A DNA stretch of 64,000 nt from a virus. The notes under the pieces were generated by a model. The model was not told where the DNA came from. It was given only the letters and a program-made list of their open reading frames with translations, and ran no database searches. Made by a program: the position numbers and the translations under genes. The DNA is taken from positions 1 to 64,000 of the IMG/VR virus record IMGVR_UViG_3300049491_000850, one strand, 5' to 3'. Shown piece after piece: positions 4,531 to 32,925 of the stretch; positions within the stretch are counted from its first letter, which is position 1, and the number at the start of each line of letters is the position of its first letter.

Positions 4531-6660
4531 ATGAGCAAAAGCAACTTACAAGAAAATTTTTATAAGAGATTGAAGCATCTAGGAGGCGTTGGGAGCAAAT
4601 CATCAAACAACCCCGCATCATCATTAAGTACTTCTACTCTTGTTGATTACACAAGATCAAGCGAAGGCGTGGCTCTTGGTATAGTTAAAGAAAACCACAA
4701 CTATTTCATCAAGACCTCAAGCAGTAAAGATGAAACTCTTGGTGCAGAACATTTCACTTACATTGGTGGAGTTGAAAACAAATTCAAGTATCAGTACAAT
4801 ACTTTATCAGAAGCAGAGAAGAACAGAAACTTCTACATTAAGACTTTGAATGAATCTGCTCACAAGCAATTCAAGAAAATCTCTATCAATGAAGGAGAAA
4901 ATATCGCTAAGGCTCAACCAAATGCAAACGTGGAGAATCCAGAAAAAGCACAAGGTGAAGCTGACAAAGGAAAAGGTAGTGCTCCATTGAAGGACACCGC
5001 ACCTACAAAAGAACCAGCAAAGGTTCCATCGGCAAAGGAAATTGTTGTTGACAAGACACAAGTTAAACCTAAGACTGTTGATGATACAAAATCAGGTGGT
5101 AAAGTTACAATTACCAACAAACAAGCAACCGCAAAAGTTGTAAAAGAAAATGAAGCAATCAAAGAATACGGCAACGAACATGAAGTTAGTGTTGACGATG
5201 CTTTGAAAAATAAAGTAGCTGAAAACTTCGGTCAGGAAGAATTTCCTCAAGAAGAACCAGCAGCAGCATTAGACGGTGCACCAGTAGCAGATGCTGGTAT
5301 TGGCGCAGGATCAGGTGATGAAAATCCAGAACTTGATGCAGCAGCAGCAGCGTTAGATGATATGGGCGCAGCAAGTGCAGAAGCACCAGCAGCACCAGAT
5401 GCAGGTTTAGGTGATGGCGCACCAGACGCAGGTCTTGGTGACGATTCAGGTCTTGGCGATGATTCAGGTTTACCTGATGATGGCATGGGCGGTGACGCTG
5501 GTGTTAGAGACATCGAAAAACTTACTGGCAAGGTTACACAAAAAATCAGATCAGCAACTCTTACTCCTGAAATGAGCAAAGGTTTGTTAAAATCATTCAT
5601 CACTTCGTTTGACGAAAAACTTGATGAAATGGATCACGAAGATAAGAAAGAATTAGCAGCCGCTATCATGAAAGAGAAATCTGATGATGATATGGGTATC
5701 AGCGATGATGCAGTAAGTGCGGATGCAGGTGCTGGTATCGGTGGTGGTTCTGAAATTGGAGGAACTAGTGATGCAGAAGAAAAAGAAATTGAAGAAACTA
5801 TCAATCAGCATTTAGCTGAAATGGGCATCGGGATGAATGAATCAGATGTTAACATTGAAGGTAGTGCAGAAAGTAGCGATACAAAGCCTTTCAAAGAATA
5901 CGTAAAAAGCAGAGGTTACAATCCTGAAAGAGTTGACGAAATCTCGTTAATGGAAATGGTAAGTTTAGTGAACGGTTATACTAACGAATGTGGAGACGCA
6001 ATCGCTCAGGCTGACGCACACGGTTTATCAGAATTCGTTACACCAGAAGTTAACGCTAAAGTTCAGGAATCAGGTAACTCACTTTTCGAAAATCTTATGA
6101 AGCCATTCGGTGAAAAGATTAAGAAAAATAAGAAAGCATACGCTTCTGAATCAGTAATCCCAACTATCAACGAAAACTTCGGTGAAGAAGAAGGTGGTGA
6201 AGAAGAGGAAGAAGACGATGCAGCAGCAGATACTGCAATTTTCGGAGCAGACAAAGACAACGATGGTGATGCAGATGCAGCTATCTCAGTTAGTTCAACC
6301 GAAGAAGAACCAGCAATCGAAGAACCATCAGTTGAAGCTGAACCAGTGTCAGCAATCTCAATTGCACCAGCAGCAGAAACTCTTGGCGCAGGTGCTCCGG
6401 GTGGATCAGAAGGCGGTTCTAAATCAGTAACTGTCGATCTTAACGCAAACACAATTAGCATGACTATGAATGAGTCAACTAAAGCTAAGTTGGAAAAAAT
6501 TGTTAAGAAGAAAATTGAAGAAGCATTGAACGGTAAGAAATCTCCAATCAACGAAGGTAAGAAATCAGCATTGTCAATTATGATTGACGAGTTGGTTAAC
6601 GAAGCAATCGTAAAGAGAAGAGCAAATATTGAGAAAGCACTTCTTAGACCAAGAACATAA
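4531..6660 (+). CDS. Large acidic Ala/Glu/Asp-rich virion or head-assembly protein
   Basis: 709 residues from the ATG at 4531; the upstream in-frame TTG at 4501 is rejected because the promoter ends at 4490. The N-terminal domain (about 1-120) is globular, with a YFIKT...FTYIGGVENKFKYQY pattern I have seen in other large T4-like phages. The middle and C-terminal parts are low-complexity Ala/Pro/Glu/Asp segments (for example repeated GLGDDSGLPDD) separating short helices. L-N-E or I-N-E motifs recur (TLNES, SINEG, TINEN, PINEG), candidate prohead-protease sites. It sits just before terminase and portal in a late operon with 6663. The composition fits an internal head or core protein that is trimmed during maturation; this is inference. 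Confidence 0.65.
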   Translation: MSKSNLQENFYKRLKHLGGVGSKSSNNPASSLSTSTLVDYTRSSEGVALGIVKENHNYFIKTSSSKDETLGAEHFTYIGGVENKFKYQYNTLSEAEKNRNFYIKTLNESAHKQFKKISINEGENIAKAQPNANVENPEKAQGEADKGKGSAPLKDTAPTKEPAKVPSAKEIVVDKTQVKPKTVDDTKSGGKVTITNKQATAKVVKENEAIKEYGNEHEVSVDDALKNKVAENFGQEEFPQEEPAAALDGAPVADAGIGAGSGDENPELDAAAAALDDMGAASAEAPAAPDAGLGDGAPDAGLGDDSGLGDDSGLPDDGMGGDAGVRDIEKLTGKVTQKIRSATLTPEMSKGLLKSFITSFDEKLDEMDHEDKKELAAAIMKEKSDDDMGISDDAVSADAGAGIGGGSEIGGTSDAEEKEIEETINQHLAEMGIGMNESDVNIEGSAESSDTKPFKEYVKSRGYNPERVDEISLMEMVSLVNGYTNECGDAIAQADAHGLSEFVTPEVNAKVQESGNSLFENLMKPFGEKIKKNKKAYASESVIPTINENFGEEEGGEEEEEDDAAADTAIFGADKDNDGDADAAISVSSTEEEPAIEEPSVEAEPVSAISIAPAAETLGAGAPGGSEGGSKSVTVDLNANTISMTMNESTKAKLEKIVKKKIEEALNGKKSPINEGKKSALSIMIDELVNEAIVKRRANIEKALLRPRT

Positions 6661-6662
6661 TA

Positions 6663-7166
6663 ATGACAGACACAACCGATTTAAGACTTATATTCGTTTT
6701 AAAAATCGGGATTAACACTAAGGGGGAGGGTCTTTATGAATTTATATTCAGTAAAGACCCTTCTGCCGTTGATGCCGAAGCGTGGGGATGGACAGCAATG
6801 CCAGCAAAAGGTAATGCCAATCCACCAGACGAAAAATCTATTGACTTAATCTTAGCATTGAAAACTGATAAGATCGATCTCATTTGTCTTCATGACTTGA
6901 ATGACAGAACATATCTTGATGGATACTACACCATTCAAGCCCTTGCATATGAAAATTTGGAAGATGATTCTGCCGACATCATGTACGAAGAAGTCGGAAT
7001 GCTAGTATTCCATTATGGAATGAAACTAAAAGAAGTACAAGACAGACTTTACACTCGTGATCTAATTTTCAAAGAATCCAAAGTCGAAAAATCAGAAACT
7101 GTTGCCATTGCTAATGACAATGAAGAGGATGATGATGACGAAGATGACATGGGTTTAATCGTATAA
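6663..7166 (+). CDS. Conserved-looking acidic protein upstream of terminase, function unknown
   Basis: 167 residues, starting two bases after the previous stop and so in the same transcript. The body (1-140) looks globular (LRLIFVLKIG, then ICLHDLNDRTYLDGYY and MLVFHYGMKLKEVQDRLY), and the C-terminus is an acidic tail (EEDDDDEDDMGLIV). I do not recognise the family. An acidic tail just before TerL could suggest a packaging or head-completion partner such as a small-terminase analogue, but there is no helix-turn-helix to support that. It ends at an intrinsic terminator. Confidence 0.65.
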   Translation: MTDTTDLRLIFVLKIGINTKGEGLYEFIFSKDPSAVDAEAWGWTAMPAKGNANPPDEKSIDLILALKTDKIDLICLHDLNDRTYLDGYYTIQALAYENLEDDSADIMYEEVGMLVFHYGMKLKEVQDRLYTRDLIFKESKVEKSETVAIANDNEEDDDDEDDMGLIV

Positions 7167-7167
7167 A

Positions 7168-7192
7168 AGAACGCTAACAGGCGTTTTTTTCA
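7168..7192 (+). terminator. Intrinsic terminator before terminase
   Basis: AACGC-TAACAG-GCGTT (7170-7185) followed by a T-run. Short stem but well placed between the gene ending at 7166 and the next promoter at 7201. Confidence 0.6.
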
Positions 7193-7200
7193 TTTATAGG

Positions 7201-7208
7201 TATTTATA
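7201..7208 (+). promoter_or_regulatory. Late-type promoter TATTTATA for terminase
   Basis: GGTATTTATAAT, 11 bases before the ATG at 7220. Confidence 0.75.
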
Positions 7209-7219
7209 ATAAAATATAA

Positions 7220-9238
7220 ATGGCTAAAAAGAAGAAAGTTGACGATGACGATCTTGAATTTGTACCAGATAACAACAAGAGAGCACTTACTCCCGAAGAA
7301 CTTGCAAAGATCGAGTTAAAGAAAAAAGTACGTGAACTCCGTGAGAAAACGATGAATCAAGTTCAGATCGTTGTTACAAAATCAGGAGAAGTTAAGACTG
7401 CCAATAAATTAACGTTACAAGAACAAACAGACGAGTATACTCGCTGTGCAATTGATCCAATATATTTCATTGAAACGTATCTCACCGTGTTCGATCAGAC
7501 CAGAGGTGAATCAGGGGAAATCGTACCATTCAAACTTTTCGATTTCCAAAAGTTACTTGTAAAAGCATATCTCAAAAACAAACAAAACATTGCTAACAAA
7601 TACAGACAGGCTGGTGTATCTACAACTACTTGTGCGTATATCGCTTGGTACTTAATGTTCAATCAGAATAGATACGTTGCCGTTATAGCGGATAAACTTG
7701 AAACTGCTAAGGACGAGTTGTTGTCTGAAATTATTGACTTCATTGAAACATGTCCTTCATACTTACGTCCAGAAATTGCTGGTAAGGATGCAAAGCACCA
7801 TAAGAAATATTCAAACGGTAGTCAGATTAAAGCGTTTGCTGCAACCAAACTTAGAGGGCCGACCCCGACATTAATGTTTTGGGATGAAACTGCGTGGACA
7901 GAAAAAGGTGATGACTTCTGGACATCTGCGAGACCTTCTGTAAACTCTACAGGTGGTCGTGTGATCTTCGTATCCACACCAAATGGTTTAGACTCCGTGT
8001 TCTATGCTACATTCGACAAGGCATCAAAAAAACAAAACGAATTTAATTCTATCGAATTATGGTGGTACAATGATCCCCGTTATAACATAGGATTATCATG
8101 GGTTAAGAATGAAGGAAAAGATTCCGAATTCAGAATCATAGATGAAAACTTCTCATTCGAGAAAAGAAAACAATTCATTCTTGATGGTTTCAAACCTATG
8201 AGTGATTGGTTCATTAAAGCAAAAATGGGTTACAATGGTAACCTACGTAAACTTGCTCAGGAAGTTGAGTGCTCGTTCTTAGGATCGGGTGAAAACTTCT
8301 TCTCAGAGGAATTTATTAAACGTATTGAAGATAATGAGTTGATGAAATTTATTTCCGAAGAATGGGAAGACAAACTCATGTGGATTTGGGAAGACCCTAT
8401 TCCGAACACGGCATACGTTATAGCAACTGACGTTTCTACCGGACACGGTGAAGACTTTTCAGCAGTTAACCTTCTCAAAATTAAAGACGTGATTGAAGAG
8501 ATCAACGTTGTCGATGCGTCAGGGAAAATTGCTAAAAAGAAAGTCAAAAGAAGAAAGACTGAACAGGTTGCTCAATACTACGGTAAAGTAACACCACAAT
8601 ACCTTGCTCAGATTGTTTACGCATACGGTGTGAAATACAACCATGCATATGCCGTGATCGATGTGACTGGTGGTGTTGGACTTGGTACGATGGAGAAACT
8701 ATTAGAATTCGGCTATCCACTCAAAAATGTTCATTACTCAGAAATTCAACACAAGCCTACCCGTGATCGTCTTAATCACTACGTTAAAACTGTTCAGAAA
8801 GAAGTTACACCGGGTGTATTTGTGAAGGTTGATTTAATTCCCGGATTCATGATTGGTAATAACCGTGCAATGGTTCTTCTTGAACTTGAACGTGCCGTTC
8901 GTATGATGGACATTATGATCCGTTCACTCAGAACCACTTCCGAAATGAAGACCTTCCAAAGTATTGGAGGATCACGTTTCGCAGAAGCGAAGAGAACATT
9001 CCACGATGACGACATATTATCACTTGCAATTGGTCAGTATGTGATTGCATTTGATATGACCAAAGGACTAACAAGTGACGAGAAAATAAAGAGCATGCTT
9101 GACGCAATTATGGTCGTAGGGGTGAACGATGCAATCCTTCAACCAGACGAAGCAAAAAGACGTGAACCTACGGACGTTCGCCCCCACGGGCCTAATCCCT
9201 ATGGTCAACATTCTTGGTTATTCAAAAATCTTAAATAA
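7220..9238 (+). CDS. terL: Terminase large subunit (T4 gp17-like packaging ATPase/nuclease)
   Basis: 672 residues, slightly longer than T4 gp17 (610). It drives ATP-dependent DNA translocation into the prohead and cuts concatemers. The ATPase part shows the variant Walker A at 129-137 (RQAGVSTTT), Walker B at 218-223 (LMFWDE, D222/E223) and a coupling motif VSTPNG at 251-256. The RNase-H-like nuclease part has D404 (ATDVSTG), D481 (AVIDVTGG) and the acidic cluster HDDD at 595-598. The N-terminal 60 residues are charged and probably bind partners. It has its own late-type promoter and is followed by the portal gene, the usual T4 arrangement. All catalytic elements are present, so it should be active. 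Confidence 0.95.
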   Translation: MAKKKKVDDDDLEFVPDNNKRALTPEELAKIELKKKVRELREKTMNQVQIVVTKSGEVKTANKLTLQEQTDEYTRCAIDPIYFIETYLTVFDQTRGESGEIVPFKLFDFQKLLVKAYLKNKQNIANKYRQAGVSTTTCAYIAWYLMFNQNRYVAVIADKLETAKDELLSEIIDFIETCPSYLRPEIAGKDAKHHKKYSNGSQIKAFAATKLRGPTPTLMFWDETAWTEKGDDFWTSARPSVNSTGGRVIFVSTPNGLDSVFYATFDKASKKQNEFNSIELWWYNDPRYNIGLSWVKNEGKDSEFRIIDENFSFEKRKQFILDGFKPMSDWFIKAKMGYNGNLRKLAQEVECSFLGSGENFFSEEFIKRIEDNELMKFISEEWEDKLMWIWEDPIPNTAYVIATDVSTGHGEDFSAVNLLKIKDVIEEINVVDASGKIAKKKVKRRKTEQVAQYYGKVTPQYLAQIVYAYGVKYNHAYAVIDVTGGVGLGTMEKLLEFGYPLKNVHYSEIQHKPTRDRLNHYVKTVQKEVTPGVFVKVDLIPGFMIGNNRAMVLLELERAVRMMDIMIRSLRTTSEMKTFQSIGGSRFAEAKRTFHDDDILSLAIGQYVIAFDMTKGLTSDEKIKSMLDAIMVVGVNDAILQPDEAKRREPTDVRPHGPNPYGQHSWLFKNLK

Positions 9239-26309: not shown

Positions 26310-26849
26310 ATGACAAAGAAGAGAAAAGATCATATTGATTTTGAAGAAGAAAGATACGGATTGTTCATGTCTGACAACAGCTATGACCTTGACGTTATGT
26401 ACGGTAGAGAATATTTGAAAGTGGATAGTCCTTTCTACATCAACTATTACAAGATCAACATTCTTAAAACTAAGGTTGATGATTTATACGGTGAGTCTAA
26501 ACCAGCCGATAAGAAATTCTTTGCCCCTGTCAGAATTAATGTCATGATGGACATTGAAGAAGGTGCAGAAAAATTTATGAGTGAGACAGGTATTCTTCGC
26601 GATGATGTTGGTAATCTAATCTTTGGTGTCTTCGAAGAAGAATTGAGAGAGAAAGGTATTGACTTTATCCTTGGTGACTATGTATCGATCAACGTATCAG
26701 GTAAGAGAGAAAGATTTTTTGAGATTGTTAATCCAAACTATGTGAGTGATTCAACCACAAAGTCGAGAGGTGGTTTCAGAAATGATTATTGGAAGGCAAT
26801 TGAAGCAACTCCTGTTAAGGAAGATGTTGTGCCTGACATTATGAATTAA
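26310..26849 (+). CDS. Putative neck protein (T4 gp14-like)
   Basis: 179 residues, starting one base after the previous stop. The region LKTKVDDLYGESKPADKKFFAPVRI (about 50-75), followed by an IEEGAEKFMSETG segment and a beta-rich part (DYVSINVSGKRERFFEIVNPNY), fits the neck family that has a D.LYGES.K.F..P.. pattern in T4-like phages. The function would be sealing the packaged head and docking the tail. The C-terminus overlaps the convergent small membrane protein gene by 11 bases. Confidence 0.6.
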   Translation: MTKKRKDHIDFEEERYGLFMSDNSYDLDVMYGREYLKVDSPFYINYYKINILKTKVDDLYGESKPADKKFFAPVRINVMMDIEEGAEKFMSETGILRDDVGNLIFGVFEEELREKGIDFILGDYVSINVSGKRERFFEIVNPNYVSDSTTKSRGGFRNDYWKAIEATPVKEDVVPDIMN

Positions 26850-27108
26850 TTCTTGCTTCGATTATTTTTCTAATTCGTTCCAATTCGGCAATAATAAACT
26901 CGTGCTGCTCTTTTGAGTGTATTTTCAATTCATGAGAATATTTTATATACATGTCAGCAGCAAATTCTAAGAATTCTAAATCTTTCTTAGAAAGAAAAAT
27001 TGCTTGTTGTTCTAACTCTTTATTTGCCTTGGTAAGTTTTCTAACTTTAATCCATAACAAAACAGCTATAACAACAAGCAATAATAATATTGCCAGCAAT
27101 ATTTCCAT
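26839..27108 (-). CDS. Small membrane-anchored coiled-coil protein
   Basis: 89 residues: a very hydrophobic N-terminal segment (3-22, Leu/Val/Ile) followed by a basic turn and a long charged helix to the C-terminus. This is a single-pass anchor with a coiled-coil domain; no family recognised. It is the last gene of the leftward accessory operon, three bases after the ThyX-like gene. An i-spanin-like role is conceivable from topology but unsupported by a partner. Confidence 0.6.
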   Translation of the reverse strand: MEILLAILLLLVVIAVLLWIKVRKLTKANKELEQQAIFLSKKDLEFLEFAADMYIKYSHELKIHSKEQHEFIIAELERIRKIIEARINS

Positions 27109-27111
27109 TTC

Positions 27112-28098
27112 TTATTTCAATTGTACTCTTTCATCTTTTCTGTTTTCATTAAACAATGTCTTACGGAATTGAATGAATCCTCTAAAGTTACCTGACCATC
27201 CCCATGTTCCGTCTTCTCCGTCATCAGCATTAAAAGATGATTTCATGTTGAATTCAGATTCTGTCATTGCACGACCTGCGTGTTCGAATGGTGAGTAGTG
27301 ACCAGACTTTTCAAGTTTATCAAACAATTTTACATCATTGTCGTAATTATCAGGCTTACCTTCTTCACCAACTACCGTGTACGATACTCTCGCGCAACGT
27401 GCGATGGCAATCTTAATTTTGTACTTATCAATAAGTGCTTGATTACCTTTTGAAATACCACCGTGTGCTTCTTGGTAACTTAATATTGGATCAAATACAC
27501 CATGATCTTTTTCAATCAATGTGCGTAACGCTTGTTCATCTATCTTATCACCGAAAGGAGTATGCCATTCACCATCCTTCAATAAAACAGGATCGGAGGC
27601 ATTGTATGCTTCAAGCATTTCATACGCCAACTTCTGAATATGAATGTCAGCAAATTCACTACATCTTAACGAGAAGAAGTTTTCAAACTCCGTACCCGAT
27701 AAAATTACTGTGTGCCACATGAACGGTTCAAGAATACGATTAACCAATTGCTTGGTCAGTCCTAACTTATTTAAGATTAGAGCAGAGACAATCGCAAACT
27801 TTGATGCAAGAATCCAGAAGAATTTGATCAAACTTATCTTCCAACCAGAGAAGTATTCGTTACCCTGCATTCCGCTATGGTCTTTCATCCAAGCGATTGG
27901 AATGAATGGATTAGTTCGAACAGATTTAACCATTTTTTTGAATGGGATCGCTCGGCTACTCGCTGAGTTTTTACTAAGCATCCGGTGAGTATTCAACTCA
28001 GCAAGGATATATCTAGGGAAAGTGAGGACGAAAGTCGTTAACCTGTTGTCGAACTGATTTTTTGAGTCGGCAACAATTTGCGCACTAATTTTGGTCAT
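27112..28098 (-). CDS. ThyX-like flavin-dependent thymidylate synthase family protein
   Basis: 328 residues. The ThyX signature RHRx7S is represented by T37-H38-R39 with S47 (NTHRMLSKNSASSR), plus R49. ThyX makes dTMP from dUMP with flavin and methylene-tetrahydrofolate, which would serve phage DNA synthesis. The C-terminal part (about 250-300: ARVSY, HYSPFEHAGRAM) matches the family H.SP.EH region. Two oddities: the first signature Arg is Thr, and about 70-100 extra residues, with a hydrophobic stretch at about 88-115, separate the signature from the rest (usual length is near 230). It may be active with altered flavin binding, or a modified-base relative; I cannot tell. Confidence 0.75.
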   Translation of the reverse strand: MTKISAQIVADSKNQFDNRLTTFVLTFPRYILAELNTHRMLSKNSASSRAIPFKKMVKSVRTNPFIPIAWMKDHSGMQGNEYFSGWKISLIKFFWILASKFAIVSALILNKLGLTKQLVNRILEPFMWHTVILSGTEFENFFSLRCSEFADIHIQKLAYEMLEAYNASDPVLLKDGEWHTPFGDKIDEQALRTLIEKDHGVFDPILSYQEAHGGISKGNQALIDKYKIKIAIARCARVSYTVVGEEGKPDNYDNDVKLFDKLEKSGHYSPFEHAGRAMTESEFNMKSSFNADDGEDGTWGWSGNFRGFIQFRKTLFNENRKDERVQLK

Positions 28099-28113
28099 TA
28101 AAAATTGACGGTA

Positions 28114-29310
28114 CTAAGAATAAAGTGATTTCCTAATCGAAATTAAGGTATCGTTCAGATACTCAAAATCGGGAATTTCGGGCAAGTTACTGTTTTTATA
28201 CAATTCTGGCAAGTCTTTTACAATTTTTTCGGCATACTCCATAGCTACATCATATTCAACCTTTCCATACTTAATATCCATCAAAAATTGACGGTCATCT
28301 GTACGTCTAAGAATCAGCCCTTTACCCTCACCAATCTCCTTTGCCACGCTTAATAGGCGTACACAATGGGAAATATTCTTGGTATCATAATCCTGCTTCA
28401 AGTTGTTCCTATAACGTTCTGGATTGCGTTTATTCACCCAATTCCAATACTGTTCATAATCTTTGCAATGCTTGATATAACCGTCCTTATTATAAGAGAT
28501 ATTACCAAGAAAAAGAATCTCGCCTTCTGGCACATTTTCCATTTTAGGTACAGATGAAAGTCTAATCTCATTGGAGTTCTCCAATTCAATTCCTTTAAAC
28601 CCATAACCCATAGGTAATCCTGCTTGTCTTCTATTTCCCTTTACGATTTCGATGTCATATTCATTGAGATCACTTCCGAATAAATTAGCTTGTACTCTAT
28701 CGTAATAGAGTGCATATGAATCTCTGGCGTTCGTTAGTGCCACAACACCACAAAATCTTTGATCATACCCCTGAGTTTCTAACCATGCTTTGAGATCACG
28801 AGTCTTTCCAGCCTCCATCAATTTACAAAAATCCAAAGGAGTTTTACGTACCTCACCAACCGGATTATTTATTTTTTTATTTAAACCACGAGCCTTCTTG
28901 ATCTGTGCAATCGCATATTCACCAAACGATTTCTCACACTTCTTAGATAAGATGCGCGACATATCAAGATTTTTAAATTGGCTGCTATAATCTTGTGCTT
29001 TGATTGCAACAAGTAATTCTAAAACGTTTGGATTATTGTTGTTCAACAGTTCGAAGAACTTTCCAATTTCCATATAGGTAATATCATCCTTCTGCGGTTC
29101 GTCCTTTTCAACTACATCTTTGAATGATGCATCAATGCGATAGTTAAGGGAATAGAAGTCATCTTTATGTAAATGAAAAAGTCCATAAACATCTTCGTCA
29201 GATTCTTCATTATTAAGATTGAACGCATAACTTCCAATAACAGTCTTGGCAAGGATAAGACGATTATCCTTGATGAAATCTTCCGTATATTTTGATTTTA
29301 AATAACTCAT
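28114..29310 (-). CDS. RlaP/YcgL-type nucleotidyltransferase
   Basis: 398 residues from the ATG at 29310, which overlaps the previous stop as ATGA; a longer TTG start at 29337 is rejected. The N-terminal domain has the polymerase-beta-superfamily pattern G26-S27 ... S37-D38-E-D40 followed by VYGLF, close to the GSRAYG...SD.D.RG form of the RNA-ligase-associated (RlaP, YcgL) family. The family size (about 250-400) fits. Members are predicted to transfer nucleotides to RNA or other targets; no RNA ligase is visible in this window. It lies in an accessory operon with a second nucleotidyltransferase-fold protein (30967) and an HD hydrolase (29925). Confidence 0.75.
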   Translation of the reverse strand: MSYLKSKYTEDFIKDNRLILAKTVIGSYAFNLNNEESDEDVYGLFHLHKDDFYSLNYRIDASFKDVVEKDEPQKDDITYMEIGKFFELLNNNNPNVLELLVAIKAQDYSSQFKNLDMSRILSKKCEKSFGEYAIAQIKKARGLNKKINNPVGEVRKTPLDFCKLMEAGKTRDLKAWLETQGYDQRFCGVVALTNARDSYALYYDRVQANLFGSDLNEYDIEIVKGNRRQAGLPMGYGFKGIELENSNEIRLSSVPKMENVPEGEILFLGNISYNKDGYIKHCKDYEQYWNWVNKRNPERYRNNLKQDYDTKNISHCVRLLSVAKEIGEGKGLILRRTDDRQFLMDIKYGKVEYDVAMEYAEKIVKDLPELYKNSNLPEIPDFEYLNDTLISIRKSLYS

Positions 29311-29513
29311 TTTACTTGTTGGTTTATTCTTGCGCAATATGTTTTCGTTCTAATGCCACAATGTTGGCACAACCAAAACCATTTCTGAAAAAGTTTTCTT
29401 CTAAACAAACTCACATTACTATTGTCAGCCACCTGTTGAAGATGTCCCGGACAATTTGCACAAATAACATCAGCTTCTTCGTGTTTTTCAGCATGCTCAA
29501 TTATTTTACTCAC
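29307..29513 (-). CDS. Small putative zinc-binding protein
   Basis: 68 residues with two CxxC knuckles: C18-A-N-C21 and C49-Q-H-C52, plus C60. This is a zinc-ribbon-like arrangement. The start overlaps the upstream gene by 8 bases and the stop overlaps the downstream start by 4 bases, so it belongs to a tightly packed operon. The linker between the knuckles is basic and aromatic, possibly for nucleic-acid contact. Function unknown. Confidence 0.65.
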   Translation of the reverse strand: MSKIIEHAEKHEEADVICANCPGHLQQVADNSNVSLFRRKLFQKWFWLCQHCGIRTKTYCARINQQVK

Positions 29514-29928
29514 TTAATTTTTCTTTGCTTTTTAAAATTACCTCGTCACTAAGTTTGTAGGCGAGTACTGCTTCTTGTTGATAATGTGAAATAGTGAATT
29601 TAATAATACTCAACATCTCTTTTCTTGTACATTTTATACGCACAGGAATCATTCTGTCTTTGAACCTCAAATTATCAGGACTAACCCATTCACCTTTCAC
29701 GGTTTTCATGATGGTAATTCCACCAGAAACATGAATAACAAATTCATCCCATGCCTTATGGTGTTCATACGTAAATTCCTGAGTTTTGTTGGACGCAGGG
29801 ACAAGTATTTCCCACATTTTTACTCCCCATAGCTTTTTAAGCGTTTTTAGGGTTCTTTCGAATGCAATGAGTGTTATTATTGAGAAAAATAAGAATTGAA
29901 TCCAATGTTCCCCTAATTCTGCGCTCAT
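29506..29928 (-). CDS. Membrane-anchored small domain protein, function unknown
   Basis: 140 residues. One hydrophobic segment at about 8-24 (WIQFLFFSIITLIAF), a basic turn, then a soluble domain of about 100 residues starting MWEILVP. The domain has a compact conserved look (HVSGGITIMKTVKGEW, RMIPVRIKCTRKEML, then HYQQEAVLAYKLSDEV) that I have seen in bacterial and phage proteins without known function. It overlaps its neighbours by 4 and 8 bases in the leftward operon. Confidence 0.6.
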   Translation of the reverse strand: MSAELGEHWIQFLFFSIITLIAFERTLKTLKKLWGVKMWEILVPASNKTQEFTYEHHKAWDEFVIHVSGGITIMKTVKGEWVSPDNLRFKDRMIPVRIKCTRKEMLSIIKFTISHYQQEAVLAYKLSDEVILKSKEKLSE

Positions 29929-30530
29929 GATAATTGTCTTTTAATATCTGAATTGTACAGTGCCTCAGTGAACAAAATTTGCATGTAGTCAAACATCAAG
30001 ATATAGTGACTGTCAAACAGTTCACCACTAAACTTTTCTTGTTCTTCACTATACATCTTGGCTTTTCCACCGTATTCAATGTTACCGATACGATCACAGA
30101 ACTTAACAAAACGTGCACCTTCAACATTACGAATGTCATTGTATACTTCTGGTGACATACGTTCATCACGGTTTCTTCCACGACCATTGTTTGTTACAGC
30201 ACGAACAATCTCAGCTATCTGAACACCAATCTCCGGTGATAAACCTTTAAAGATTTTCAGAATATCATTGTAAGAAAGACGAGCATCCTCAATTGAATCG
30301 TGAAGCCAACATGCTGCGATTACAAGAGGTCTCATATGCATTGGCACTAAGTGAATGAAACGATATGCAACATCAACAACGTGCGATAAATGTATCGTAT
30401 AAGACACATCACCATACTTATGATTGGTATCGTTATGACCCTGTGTTGCTGCTTTGATTGCTCTCTTTATAATTTCAACATGATGAATGTTAAAATTATA
30501 CTTCTCGTTGAATCTGATTAACTTATCCAT
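29925..30530 (-). CDS. HD-domain phosphohydrolase of SpoT/MESH1 type
   Basis: 201 residues. HD motifs: H47 in YTIHLSHV, H77-D78 in CWLHDSIEDA with E81-D82, and a later Asp in FVKFCDRIGNI (about 140-150). The LHD.IED arrangement is typical of SpoT hydrolase and MESH1, which remove pyrophosphate from (p)ppGpp; the synthetase domain is absent. A phage enzyme of this kind could lower alarmone or related nucleotide signals during infection, but the substrate is inferred from family only. It is in an operon with nucleotidyltransferase-fold proteins (30967, 28114), so acting on a product of those enzymes is another possibility. Confidence 0.78.
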   Translation of the reverse strand: MDKLIRFNEKYNFNIHHVEIIKRAIKAATQGHNDTNHKYGDVSYTIHLSHVVDVAYRFIHLVPMHMRPLVIAACWLHDSIEDARLSYNDILKIFKGLSPEIGVQIAEIVRAVTNNGRGRNRDERMSPEVYNDIRNVEGARFVKFCDRIGNIEYGGKAKMYSEEQEKFSGELFDSHYILMFDYMQILFTEALYNSDIKRQLS

Positions 30531-30964
30531 TACTTTATCTTTAGTTTTGCCTTATCCATTAACTCCTGTAATTCAGGTGTAATACTGTCCTGATTGATTG
30601 CACCATGTTCGTCCATATAGGCTCTTATCTTATCCCATGCATCCAAATGTGCAAGAAGACCGGGATAAACATTCTCAGCAGTACCCATGATCAATACTTC
30701 TGAATTTTTTCCATATTCAAATGCATACCAAATTTTCCCACCATCGAAAGATAAAAGATTATAACATAACATTTCATCGTTATTCAGACGAGTACCACCA
30801 TGCTTGGTCAAGTAGGTAGTCTCATAATTTTTTACGATCTCCAATTGTTTGTTCAATTCCTTTTTTGTGGTAGTCGCAAGACCTACAAAAAATAAAACGA
30901 TAAGTATAAGTAAACCTACAAATAATAGCATTACGTACTCACCTCTCTTTGTTGTATCTTCCAT
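30530..30964 (-). CDS. Single-pass membrane protein, function unknown
   Basis: 144 residues. A short charged N-terminus, a strongly hydrophobic segment at about 11-30 (VMLLFVGLLILIVLFFVGLA), then a soluble domain of about 110 residues with mixed helix and strand and a charged C-terminus. No family recognised. The stop shares one base with the start of the HD hydrolase (TAATG), so translation is probably coupled; a membrane partner for that enzyme is conceivable. Confidence 0.6.
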   Translation of the reverse strand: MEDTTKRGEYVMLLFVGLLILIVLFFVGLATTTKKELNKQLEIVKNYETTYLTKHGGTRLNNDEMLCYNLLSFDGGKIWYAFEYGKNSEVLIMGTAENVYPGLLAHLDAWDKIRAYMDEHGAINQDSITPELQELMDKAKLKIK

Positions 30965-30966
30965 AA

Positions 30967-31947
30967 TTATTTTGTTGCGTGTAATAAAATATCTTGTTCA
31001 ATTTCTTTCTTGGTAGCACCTAAAATGAAATCTTCAAATGCCTGAATATCTTTGAACCCTTCTTTATAATTGTTCATGAAAACTCCAAGTTCTTTTCCAG
31101 TAATACCAGTCAATTCCATGATGATTCCACCATTAAACTTCTTGGATAATTTTTCAAGTATCTCTTGTCTAAGGACATGCTTCTCGTAGGCTTCCTTTAA
31201 ATTTGTTTCAAAGTACATATCGATGTCCGGTATGTAATTTTCTCTAGGCTGAATAAAAGGATAGTTCTTAGTGATCTTGTTGGTTTCCAAATACTCAAGA
31301 AATTTCACAAAATCAGGTCTTTCAGTTGCTCTTTTTCTTACATTGAAAAATGCTGGATCATAAGAGTTACTACAAAACATTGGACTTGAGACCACGTAAT
31401 CAAATATATCCTCAACGGAATTAAATCCTTGTTTCCAACGAAGATATGATAACCCGATGAAATCTAATATTCTTGCCATGTCTCGACTAACAATGATCTC
31501 TTTGGAGACATGGTTATTATAGCCACGCAAAACATAAAATAAACCTGCTTCACCGTATCTCAAATTAAATTTGTGATATATTCTACCAATCAAGTTCCCA
31601 AGAATATTGTACGACATGAAGTTTAAGCTACTTTCAAATTCCGATGTTGGTGTCATGAAGAAATCAACTTGGAAATTCTGATAGAGCATCGACATCACGT
31701 TTCGAACTTTGTGTGTTTCAACTACTCCTAAATCGTTACATATCTCGACAAACCAATTAGGTCGATTCAATACAATGCCAGCATCAAGAATAATATCCAC
31801 ATCACCATAATCGGCTTTACTGTGGTAGGGTGTTGGTATTCCATATCTTTCACCGAAGTGTTTGTCCAATATGGGTTTGAGTGAAGCAAGAATTTCTTCG
31901 TACCTCTCTTTATCAACTCGTCCGGCTTTAAATAAATTACCTCCCAT
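30967..31947 (-). CDS. Phage nucleotidyltransferase-fold protein
   Basis: 326 residues. The N-terminus MGGNLF and the region A45-D46-Y-G-D49-V-D51, with D95 in FQVDFF, give a polymerase-beta-like triad (D49, D51, D95). The usual Gly-Ser before the first Asp is replaced by H-S-K (42-44), so the nucleotide site is atypical. The C-terminal 200 residues are helical and of unknown role. Similar proteins occur in large phages, sometimes annotated as nucleotidyltransferase; substrate unknown. Its start shares one base with the preceding stop. This is the third such fold in the window. Confidence 0.65.
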   Translation of the reverse strand: MGGNLFKAGRVDKERYEEILASLKPILDKHFGERYGIPTPYHSKADYGDVDIILDAGIVLNRPNWFVEICNDLGVVETHKVRNVMSMLYQNFQVDFFMTPTSEFESSLNFMSYNILGNLIGRIYHKFNLRYGEAGLFYVLRGYNNHVSKEIIVSRDMARILDFIGLSYLRWKQGFNSVEDIFDYVVSSPMFCSNSYDPAFFNVRKRATERPDFVKFLEYLETNKITKNYPFIQPRENYIPDIDMYFETNLKEAYEKHVLRQEILEKLSKKFNGGIIMELTGITGKELGVFMNNYKEGFKDIQAFEDFILGATKKEIEQDILLHATK

Positions 31948-32207
31948 TACTCGTAACTTTCGTTTTTTAAAACTCCAATTAATTTTATTAAATCATCTGG
32001 TGTTATTGCTTCTTCTGCTTTTGTTTGAAACTCGTCAAATAACTTTTCATAGTTATTCAATGTTGTTTCATTATCTGATACTATTTTCAAAGCATGTCTT
32101 GCTTGGAATCCACTATCTTTTATGATTTGATCATTTTTATAGTTTGCTTCTTCCGCGTAAAACTTTAACGCTTCACTCAATAACTTAATTAAACTTTCGA
32201 CCTGCAT
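31947..32207 (-). CDS. Small helical protein
   Basis: 86 residues, acidic, nearly all helix (LIKLLSEALKFYAEEANY... ending LIKLIGVLKNESYE). No motif recognised. It overlaps the upstream gene by 19 bases and shares one base with the nucleotidyltransferase start downstream. The tight spacing is the main evidence that it is real. Confidence 0.55.
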   Translation of the reverse strand: MQVESLIKLLSEALKFYAEEANYKNDQIIKDSGFQARHALKIVSDNETTLNNYEKLFDEFQTKAEEAITPDDLIKLIGVLKNESYE

Positions 32208-32545
32208 GCTATGTCAATCTTTTTTAATGCTTCTTTGAGAGGTAGGTTATACAGACCTCCCTTATCGATGTCGTCCATGATGTTTATACTCAGTAACGTA
32301 TCGTGTTTTCTTTTTTCATCAACTTCAAGATAAATAAATTTGTGCTCCTTTATTAAAAGAACCGACAAAGTATTGAATCTTGTGATACTTGGTCTGATGT
32401 CTTCCAAGCTATGTTTATACACACTGTTCAAAATAGTGCGAAAATCGTTCTCGTATTTTTCCCTATTTTCAAGTCCCTTGACTTTCAGTTCATTCTCAAA
32501 ATCTTCAAAGATTTTGCGTTTTTGTACCCTTCCTGCGTTTATCAT
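32189..32545 (-). CDS. Small protein, first gene of accessory operon
   Basis: 118 residues, charged; helical N-terminal half, then a beta-rich segment (LSVLLIKEHKFIYLEVDE). No family recognised. A promoter-like sequence (AGAACAAATC-N10-ACGTATAAT, 32563-32591) lies just upstream, in the gap after the KTSC gene, so this is probably the first gene of the leftward unit that runs to 26839. Confidence 0.6.
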   Translation of the reverse strand: MINAGRVQKRKIFEDFENELKVKGLENREKYENDFRTILNSVYKHSLEDIRPSITRFNTLSVLLIKEHKFIYLEVDEKRKHDTLLSINIMDDIDKGGLYNLPLKEALKKIDIACRSKV

Positions 32546-32562
32546 ATTCGTCCGTTTATTGG

Positions 32563-32591
32563 ATTATACGTAAACTATCAGGATTTGTTCT
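32563..32591 (-). promoter_or_regulatory. Possible early-class promoter for the accessory operon
   Basis: Minus strand ACGTATAAT matches the downstream box at 8 of 9 positions; the upstream box is a poor match. It lies 17 bases before the ATG at 32545. Confidence 0.45.
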
Positions 32592-32925
32592 TCTCTTCCA
32601 GCAATTGTTTTTGCTCTTCGATCAATTTTAACATGTCTTTTTTCTCAAATTCGTACAATTTATACTCCCGAAAGTAGGTACAATTCGGGTTTTTTGCAAT
32701 ATTTTTTGAGAAGTAAACACCCTGAGAATCAGAATTTTCGAACCCAACATATAGTTCGGCATCCACGCTGGCATACGAATAAACCACACCTTTCTTAAAA
32801 ATAATGAAAAGCATCTTCTTTCCGGGCAAATAAATCGACTTCATGATGTTTGATGAATCGAAAAGTGCCTCATAAAACAACTCCTGTGTTTCTTCGTCTC
32901 TTAATTCCTTGCGTTCGAGTAGCAT
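32578..32925 (-). CDS. KTSC-domain protein
   Basis: 115 residues. Residues about 28-95 fit the KTSC pattern: SSNIMKSIYLPGKKMLFIIFKKG, then VVYSYASV, and GVYFSKNI near the end. The KTSC domain is a short module found alone or fused in phages and bacteria and thought to interact with nucleic acid or RNA-modifying partners; function is not established. A charged helical tail follows. It is divergent from the gene at 32950, and its leader contains TATAAATA, the opposite reading of that gene's late-type promoter. Confidence 0.65.
   Translation of the reverse strand: MLLERKELRDEETQELFYEALFDSSNIMKSIYLPGKKMLFIIFKKGVVYSYASVDAELYVGFENSDSQGVYFSKNIAKNPNCTYFREYKLYEFEKKDMLKLIEEQKQLLEEKNKS

Follow-up and report, generated by a model that had tools for sequence, protein, structure and literature searches.

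Does a small HD-domain gene in the virus record IMGVR_UViG_3300049491_000850 encode an alarmone hydrolase, and, if so, is it one of the SpoT/MESH1 type or a member of another branch? We analyzed positions 1 to 64,000 of this record (hereafter the window), which is part of a virus record with a total of 95,515 bases. A preliminary description had attributed the DNA to a phage, and genes for a tail sheath, a terminase, a portal and a major head protein, present in the window as in a tailed phage, bear this out. The HD gene and the neighbouring genes considered here are as follows.

27112..28098, minus strand: ThyX-type thymidylate synthase
28114..29337, minus strand: RlaP-type nucleotidyltransferase (RNA repair pathway family), E = 5.2e-13
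29506..29928, minus strand: downstream neighbour, ATGA overlap with the HD gene; S-AdoMet lyase match of 17.4 bits, under the cut-off of 28
29925..30530, minus strand: HD-domain small-alarmone-hydrolase-like protein (phrog_990), 201 aa, ATG start
30530..30964, minus strand: upstream neighbour, overlaps the HD start; 144 aa, with an N-terminal segment that looks hydrophobic by eye
30967..31947, minus strand: phrog_24943 protein, 326 aa, E = 1.2e-29; labelled DNA polymerase, nucleotidyltransferase-like by eye

The HD gene and its surroundings

The reading frame of the HD gene is intact and, as judged from the ORF call, the span of the phrog match and the structure model, the HD domain occupies most of the 201 aa. 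The start of the gene overlaps the stop of the upstream gene (TAATG at 30530) and its stop overlaps the start of the downstream gene (ATGA at 29928), an arrangement that looks as in a translationally coupled operon. Base composition gives no sign of a recent transfer of the HD gene, whose GC content (36.3%) is nearly equal to that of the window (36.6%). A megablast search with 25 kb of the window against phages gave no match. Genes for a UDP-N-acetylglucosamine 2-epimerase and a ribonucleotide reductase are located in the same record beyond 64 kb (L013:5414-6439, L014:676-2385).

The HD gene is part of a minus-strand block (approx. 26839-32925) that lies between plus-strand ORFs and holds the ThyX, RlaP, HD and phrog_24943 genes as well as a gene for a KTSC-domain protein and several unknowns. 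The upstream neighbour matched no Pfam family, and the structure model of the downstream neighbour reached a pLDDT of 39.5, while a PDB search with this neighbour gave a best E-value of 0.75; translation of this downstream gene may in fact begin at an internal ATG (29817) that follows GGGGAG. A homologue of the phrog_24943 protein is present in locus L085.

For the neighbourhood of related HD genes, a simple ORF caller picked 266 genes within two places of the HD gene, of which 148 were selected and 141, covering 77 loci, were scanned. A conserved gene neighbourhood was rejected, as any one Pfam family matched at most 2 of the 141 first neighbours (E <= 1e-4); likewise, an operon common to the relatives was rejected, as among 15 genes of the window only two, apart from the HD gene itself, were matched, each in one fetched locus. 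The 141 first neighbours include one RtcB, one PNKP phosphatase and tRNA synthetases, for which we claim no enrichment. As the first neighbours of the 77 relatives have no gene family in common, context does not name the substrate.

Active-site residues and the base-side loop

The LHDSIED motif, the first His and the late Asp named in the preliminary description are all found in the 201 aa ORF; the motif provides H77, D78, E81 and D82, and the two other residues are H47, upstream, and D146. The predicted metal ligands (H47, H77, D78 and D146) align with the reference chains. By transfer of roles from SpoT/RelSeq structures and mutants, Y44, E81, D82 and N150 are predicted to be catalytic residues and, likewise from SpoT/RelSeq, K143 and R147 are predicted to contact the 3'-pyrophosphate. 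A. baumannii SpoT is reported to require R45, Y51, E82, D83 and N147 for activity (R45A abolishes hydrolysis) and to suffer a five- to tenfold cost from the loss of K140 or R144. In RelSeq, Mn2+ is described as held by H53, H77 and D144, and hydrolysis as abolished by R44Q and D78A. SpoT residues Y51, E82, D83, N147, K140 and R144 correspond to Y44, E81, D82, N150, K143 and R147 of the HD protein, all of which are present.

The sole residue of the SpoT/RelSeq list that is missing from the HD protein is the base-stacking Arg (R44 in RelSeq, R45 in SpoT). The base-side loop of the HD protein is N36-H37-K38-Y39-G40, and in the stretch NHKYGDVSY either Lys or Tyr falls at the position of the stacking Arg, depending on the placement of the gap. 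The loop region reads KYGDVSYTIHL in the HD protein, YG..PY..HL in many phage relatives and RK..PY..HP in Rel/SpoT. The YG loop in place of Arg is the one uncommon feature of the HD protein. The small alarmone hydrolase (SAH) of P. aeruginosa (PaSAH) also has no stacking Arg, and absence of this residue thus does not exclude alarmone cleavage.

A search of IMG/VR viral contigs with the DNA pattern H..Q.YG..PY..H[LI] yielded at least 120 stretches. Among the 120 listed, 116 have HD..ED, 113 of them also K..D...N with the expected spacing and 81 the Arg in addition; of the 4 listed ORFs without HDxxED, two are fragments < 50 aa. The window protein itself fails the pattern (His for Gln and Ser for Pro). 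Pattern ORFs were preselected for an HD-like motif and a length of 130-229 aa (114 of 120 entered, 6 dropped). In 89 non-redundant phage rows, H77, D78, D82, K143 and D146 are each conserved in 89/89, E81 and N150 in 88/89 and R147 in 60/89. As the search pattern fixes H32, Q37, Y39, G40, P43, Y44 and H47 in 78 of the 89 rows, these columns are not independent.

We also compared 21 hand-picked phage proteins that were not chosen by the YG pattern (three were found by window peptide patterns, including CWLHDSIE). In this sample, HDxxED is present in 20/21, K143 in 20/21, and D146 and N150 in all 21. Column 39 is Tyr in 15/21 proteins, four of which have an RKYTG type of loop; the other six have different letters at this column, several with an Arg-bearing loop. 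Since the sample is mixed at position 39, the YG loop marks a branch and not all phage members. The one protein without HDxxED is from Tenacibaculum phage PTm5, a close relative of the window protein in which Ser replaces E81, so that activity may not be universal in the family. The PTm1 copy is shorter and has a divergent C-terminus (PTm5 and PTm1 loci L004:5974-6564 and L011:4974-5495). Another family member (L116) reads LHHSIED, with His replacing the Asp of the HD pair.

By eye, the phage proteins can be divided into type A, which includes the window protein, is longer and typically ends ADRIAN...MY..E...F, and type B, which is shorter and ends DT..NL...KY..QL. A search with one type A member (E <= 1e-4) gave matches in 419 of 50,697 phage records; near-copies and proteins with other loop types account for many of these. 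Two viral scans by peptide pattern found nothing, and two further scans of this kind found only copies of known phages (L015, L016). Overall, the sequence comparisons are best explained if the HD protein belongs to a phage-rich YG-loop branch.

One type A gene, in L118 (5808-6290, minus strand, GTG start assumed), is located 10 bases downstream of a gene on the same strand (6301-7842), whose 513 aa phage product combines an LPD1 polyvalent-protein domain with a RelA_SpoT synthetase domain (59.6 bits, cut-off 27). In MuF toxin modules, Aph1 hydrolases are reported to give immunity by cutting pppApp. The L118 pair resembles these modules and, by analogy, may be toxin-immunity-like, as a single case.

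Family, fold and position in the tree

The best family of the HD protein is phrog_990 (PHROGs; 'metal-dependent phosphohydrolase', E = 9e-19, residues 18-175), whose label names no substrate; this profile match is far beyond chance. Nine of 10 other phage proteins scanned also match phrog_990, the tenth being BBI90576.1. With Pfam HD_4, the HD protein scored 16.6 bits, under the gathering cut-off of 27.2; this model would not have sufficed to identify it and had no match when run against the whole record. NCBIfam spoT_relA scored 22 bits, and phmmer matched the HD protein to Rel and Mesh1 in the PDB at 1e-4 to 2e-4. The synthetase family PF04607 had zero matches across the 95,515-base record, which may be a fragment, and the HD domain fills the protein; the claim that a synthetase domain is lacking is thus upheld.

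A tblastn search (E <= 0.01) matched the HD protein to 84 of 50,697 phage records, with Tenacibaculum phages PTm5 and PTm1 at the top (36-37% identity), followed by an uncultured 735 kb phage (33.5%) and Tenacibaculum phage pT24 (33%). The closest sequence in the collections searched is a non-phage protein from Parabacteroides distasonis (40% identity over 128 residues), which has IEDAR..YND and GRNR.ER in common with the HD protein. As this relative is the nearest and these motifs are in common, the phage likely has a Bacteroidota-like host. The Parabacteroides gene is on 'plasmid 12' (L145, NZ_OY725757.1 121314-141736), the genes of which look chromosomal (SusD-type, sulfatases), and is flanked by genes for an ATP-binding protein and a sigma factor. 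In the phylum of a Bacteroidota bacterium MAG (G002), 92 of 296 genomes matched at E <= 1e-4, all but 9 of these in frames > 700 aa, i.e., in long Rel/SpoT. In an unverified record of Listeria phage LM 4-11-1 (L184), those stretches of the HD protein that were compared are almost the same as in Lmo0812, and this record may therefore hold host DNA.

Profile A3, built from 57 type A sequences including the window protein, matched PaSAH best among PDB entries (6.5e-26), followed by S. aureus Rel (2.8e-24), fly Mesh1 (3.2e-24) and human MESH1 (7.8e-23), with Aph1 (7smg) far behind at 1.6e-13. A smaller profile (A1) matched Lmo0812 best (2.3e-19), with PaSAH at 5e-19. The best PDB match of a type B profile (23 sequences) was the (p)ppApp hydrolase Aph1 (1.9e-24).

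The AlphaFold2 model of the HD protein (57 sequences) has a pLDDT of 91.4 and a pTM of 0.88; its least certain part is the base-side loop (residues 31-40, mean pLDDT 68). In VIA-align, which here rescored Foldseek's own candidates and is not a full search, the best match was PaSAH (6yvc, 6z3n and 6z3o; Z = 18.1, rmsd 2.2, 163 aligned), followed by MESH1 (Z = 16.9), the SAHs TdAct, C. glutamicum RelH and L. levettii (16.2-15.9), Rel/SpoT (15.5 and below) and Aph1 (14.2). Alarmone hydrolases or Rel/SpoT fill the first 21 places (Z = 18.1 to 13.1), and the first HD protein from outside this class is YpgQ, with a Z of 12.7 that ties with 13.1; unrelated HD proteins reach scores as good as those of several Rel/RelA entries (Z = 12.5 to 9.4) and of Lmo0812 (10.8). 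Foldseek also puts PaSAH first, with weak E-values (best 1.9e-3, none < 0.001; TM 0.71 and 0.80). Judged from the model, the fold gap between alarmone hydrolases and other HD enzymes is real and, for a helical fold, not large.

A main tree with 103 rows was computed without PaSpo, the SAH of Salmonella phage SSU5; in this tree bootstrap values are unsettled and long branches occur (PaSAH, 2.0). It places type B, Aph1 and PaSAH on one side and type A, Rel and MESH1 on the other (100/97). A separate set (96/95) comprises Rel, MESH1, Lmo0812 and the RKYTG phage proteins L001-L003. The window protein is outside this set and groups with the Tenacibaculum phages (99/35) and Parabacteroides (94/13), with weak SH-aLRT support in both cases. 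In a quick tree with 56 rows, to which PaSpo was added and from which PaSAH, type B and part of type A were left out, forcing the window protein into a Rel/MESH1/PaSpo set costs 47 log units (p-AU = 0.039); as this set was named after the first tree had been seen, the test is weak evidence. The set itself was neither recovered as a clade in the 56-row tree nor rejected (8 log units, P = 0.389). Overall, placement of the window protein outside Rel/MESH1, with the Tenacibaculum phages and Parabacteroides, has weak to moderate support.

Compared to the hydrolase domains of MESH1, SpoT and Rel, the HD protein has the same fold and the same catalytic residues at the positions compared, but not the RK loop or the HP motif. 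Orthology to SpoT or MESH1 was rejected on the separate tree branch, the absence of the RK loop and stacking Arg, and the p-AU value, which is marginal. From the SpoT/MESH1-like label of the preliminary description we thus retain an alarmone-hydrolase fold with its catalytic residues, but not SpoT or MESH1 proper. Membership of the window protein in Aph1 was also rejected, given the A3 matches to 7smg and PaSAH and the position of Aph1 with type B.

Two SAHs are among the closest known counterparts. PaSAH, the best A3 and fold match, resembles the HD protein in having no stacking Arg, HL for HP, CDR..N and Y..E, but differs in its LSGSPLPY loop and its long branch with type B, and is 17% identical over the model. 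PaSpo, reported to remove the toxSAS mark from tRNA, is like the HD protein a phage SAH with K-Y at K38-Y39 (99.3% hhalign probability against A3), but is 26% identical over 118 aa and has an RKYTG..YINHP loop and L for R147. On domain make-up, ligands, contacts and modelled fold, the HD protein is within the broad SAH class that comprises PaSAH, PaSpo, Aph1 and MESH1.

Predicted reaction and competing explanations

Taking sequence and model together, we consider it probable that the HD protein is a Mn2+-dependent 3'-pyrophosphohydrolase of an RSH-type product, i.e., an enzyme of the SAH class within the phage-rich YG-loop branch; its activity, metal, substrate, host and benefit are those that we infer. 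A single metal ion would be coordinated by H47, H77, D78 and D146, water would be activated by Y44 and E81/D82, and the 3'-pyrophosphate would be held by K143, R147 and N150, while the base would be capped by the K38-Y39-G40 loop instead of the Rel/SpoT arginine. The substrate would be (p)ppGpp, (p)ppApp or a tRNA that carries a pyrophosphate at the 3' CCA end, yielding GDP/GTP, ADP/ATP or chargeable tRNA, respectively. In an infected Bacteroidota-like host, a starvation- or toxSAS-type shutdown of growth and translation would thereby be lifted. The enzyme may serve either to relieve the stringent response or to undo toxSAS-type defence, as both roles fit.

A narrower proposal is that the YG-loop branch is a dedicated counter-defence, which would erase the toxSAS-type 3'-pyrophosphate from tRNA ends, or (p)ppApp, with base recognition by the Tyr; in this phage it would act from one operon together with nucleotidyltransferases of RNA repair, by which tRNA 3' ends are rebuilt. 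We regard this proposal as unlikely.

It is similarly improbable that the HD protein is a 2'/3'-phosphatase of NADPH or PAPS, as human MESH1 can be, which would place it in phage metabolism and not in alarmone control. MESH1 structures with NADPH (5vxa, Z = 16.8) and PAPS (9chy, Z = 16.8) are among the best fold matches, the record also holds thyX and ribonucleotide reductase, and a Xanthomonas SAH is reported to act on NADPH besides alarmones; however, this enzyme is described as > 100-fold less efficient on NADPH than on alarmones, and the HD protein is located outside the MESH1 branch.

Even less is to be said for a dNTP or NMP hydrolase of the HD superfamily at large that acts on the nucleotide pool, as the dATPase of diaminopurine phages does. 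A dATPase activity has been described for small HD enzymes of phages (PMC8515928) and would go well with the same thyX and ribonucleotide reductase genes, but HDxxED together with K..DR..N, and the closeness of profile and fold to alarmone hydrolases, make such an activity very unlikely. There is only a slim chance of a non-cutting nucleotide or RNA binder (a decoy or degenerate member), for which the missing E81 of PTm5, the shorter and C-terminally divergent PTm1 copy and a base loop unlike that of Rel/SpoT can be cited, since every catalytic position compared is intact in the window protein.

The reading as a YG-loop alarmone hydrolase joins similar proposals for other phages. Iyer et al. 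2021 (PMC7824862) predicted an HD-alarmone phosphodiesterase (PDease) in jumbo phages as a counter to nucleotide defence, i.e., the same prediction and proposed role as here. The protein cited there, BBI90576.1, is a different PTm1 protein (0.5% probability against A3, as a single sequence); the PTm1 relative of the window protein is BBI90623.1. For Pseudomonas phage Adele, which like the window phage has a predicted HD SAH and is described as lytic, the published account (PMC12846349) names a small alarmone hydrolase and leaves its substrate preference open; PseuPha1, of the same genus as Adele, has a YGETNFPY loop and Ser at R147. As a caution, (p)ppGpp is reported to be neither bound nor cut by a cyanophage MazG that had been implicated in its removal (PMC6850273). 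The open-licence literature searched yielded no assay of a YG-loop member.

SAH-type enzymes of phages are thus already known from PaSpo and from the jumbo-phage prediction; uncommon here is the YG loop in place of Arg. This loop difference is a concrete, testable reason to expect an altered base preference, and the substrate of the YG-loop branch would show whether it is the stringent response, toxSAS defence or neither of the two that these phages counter.
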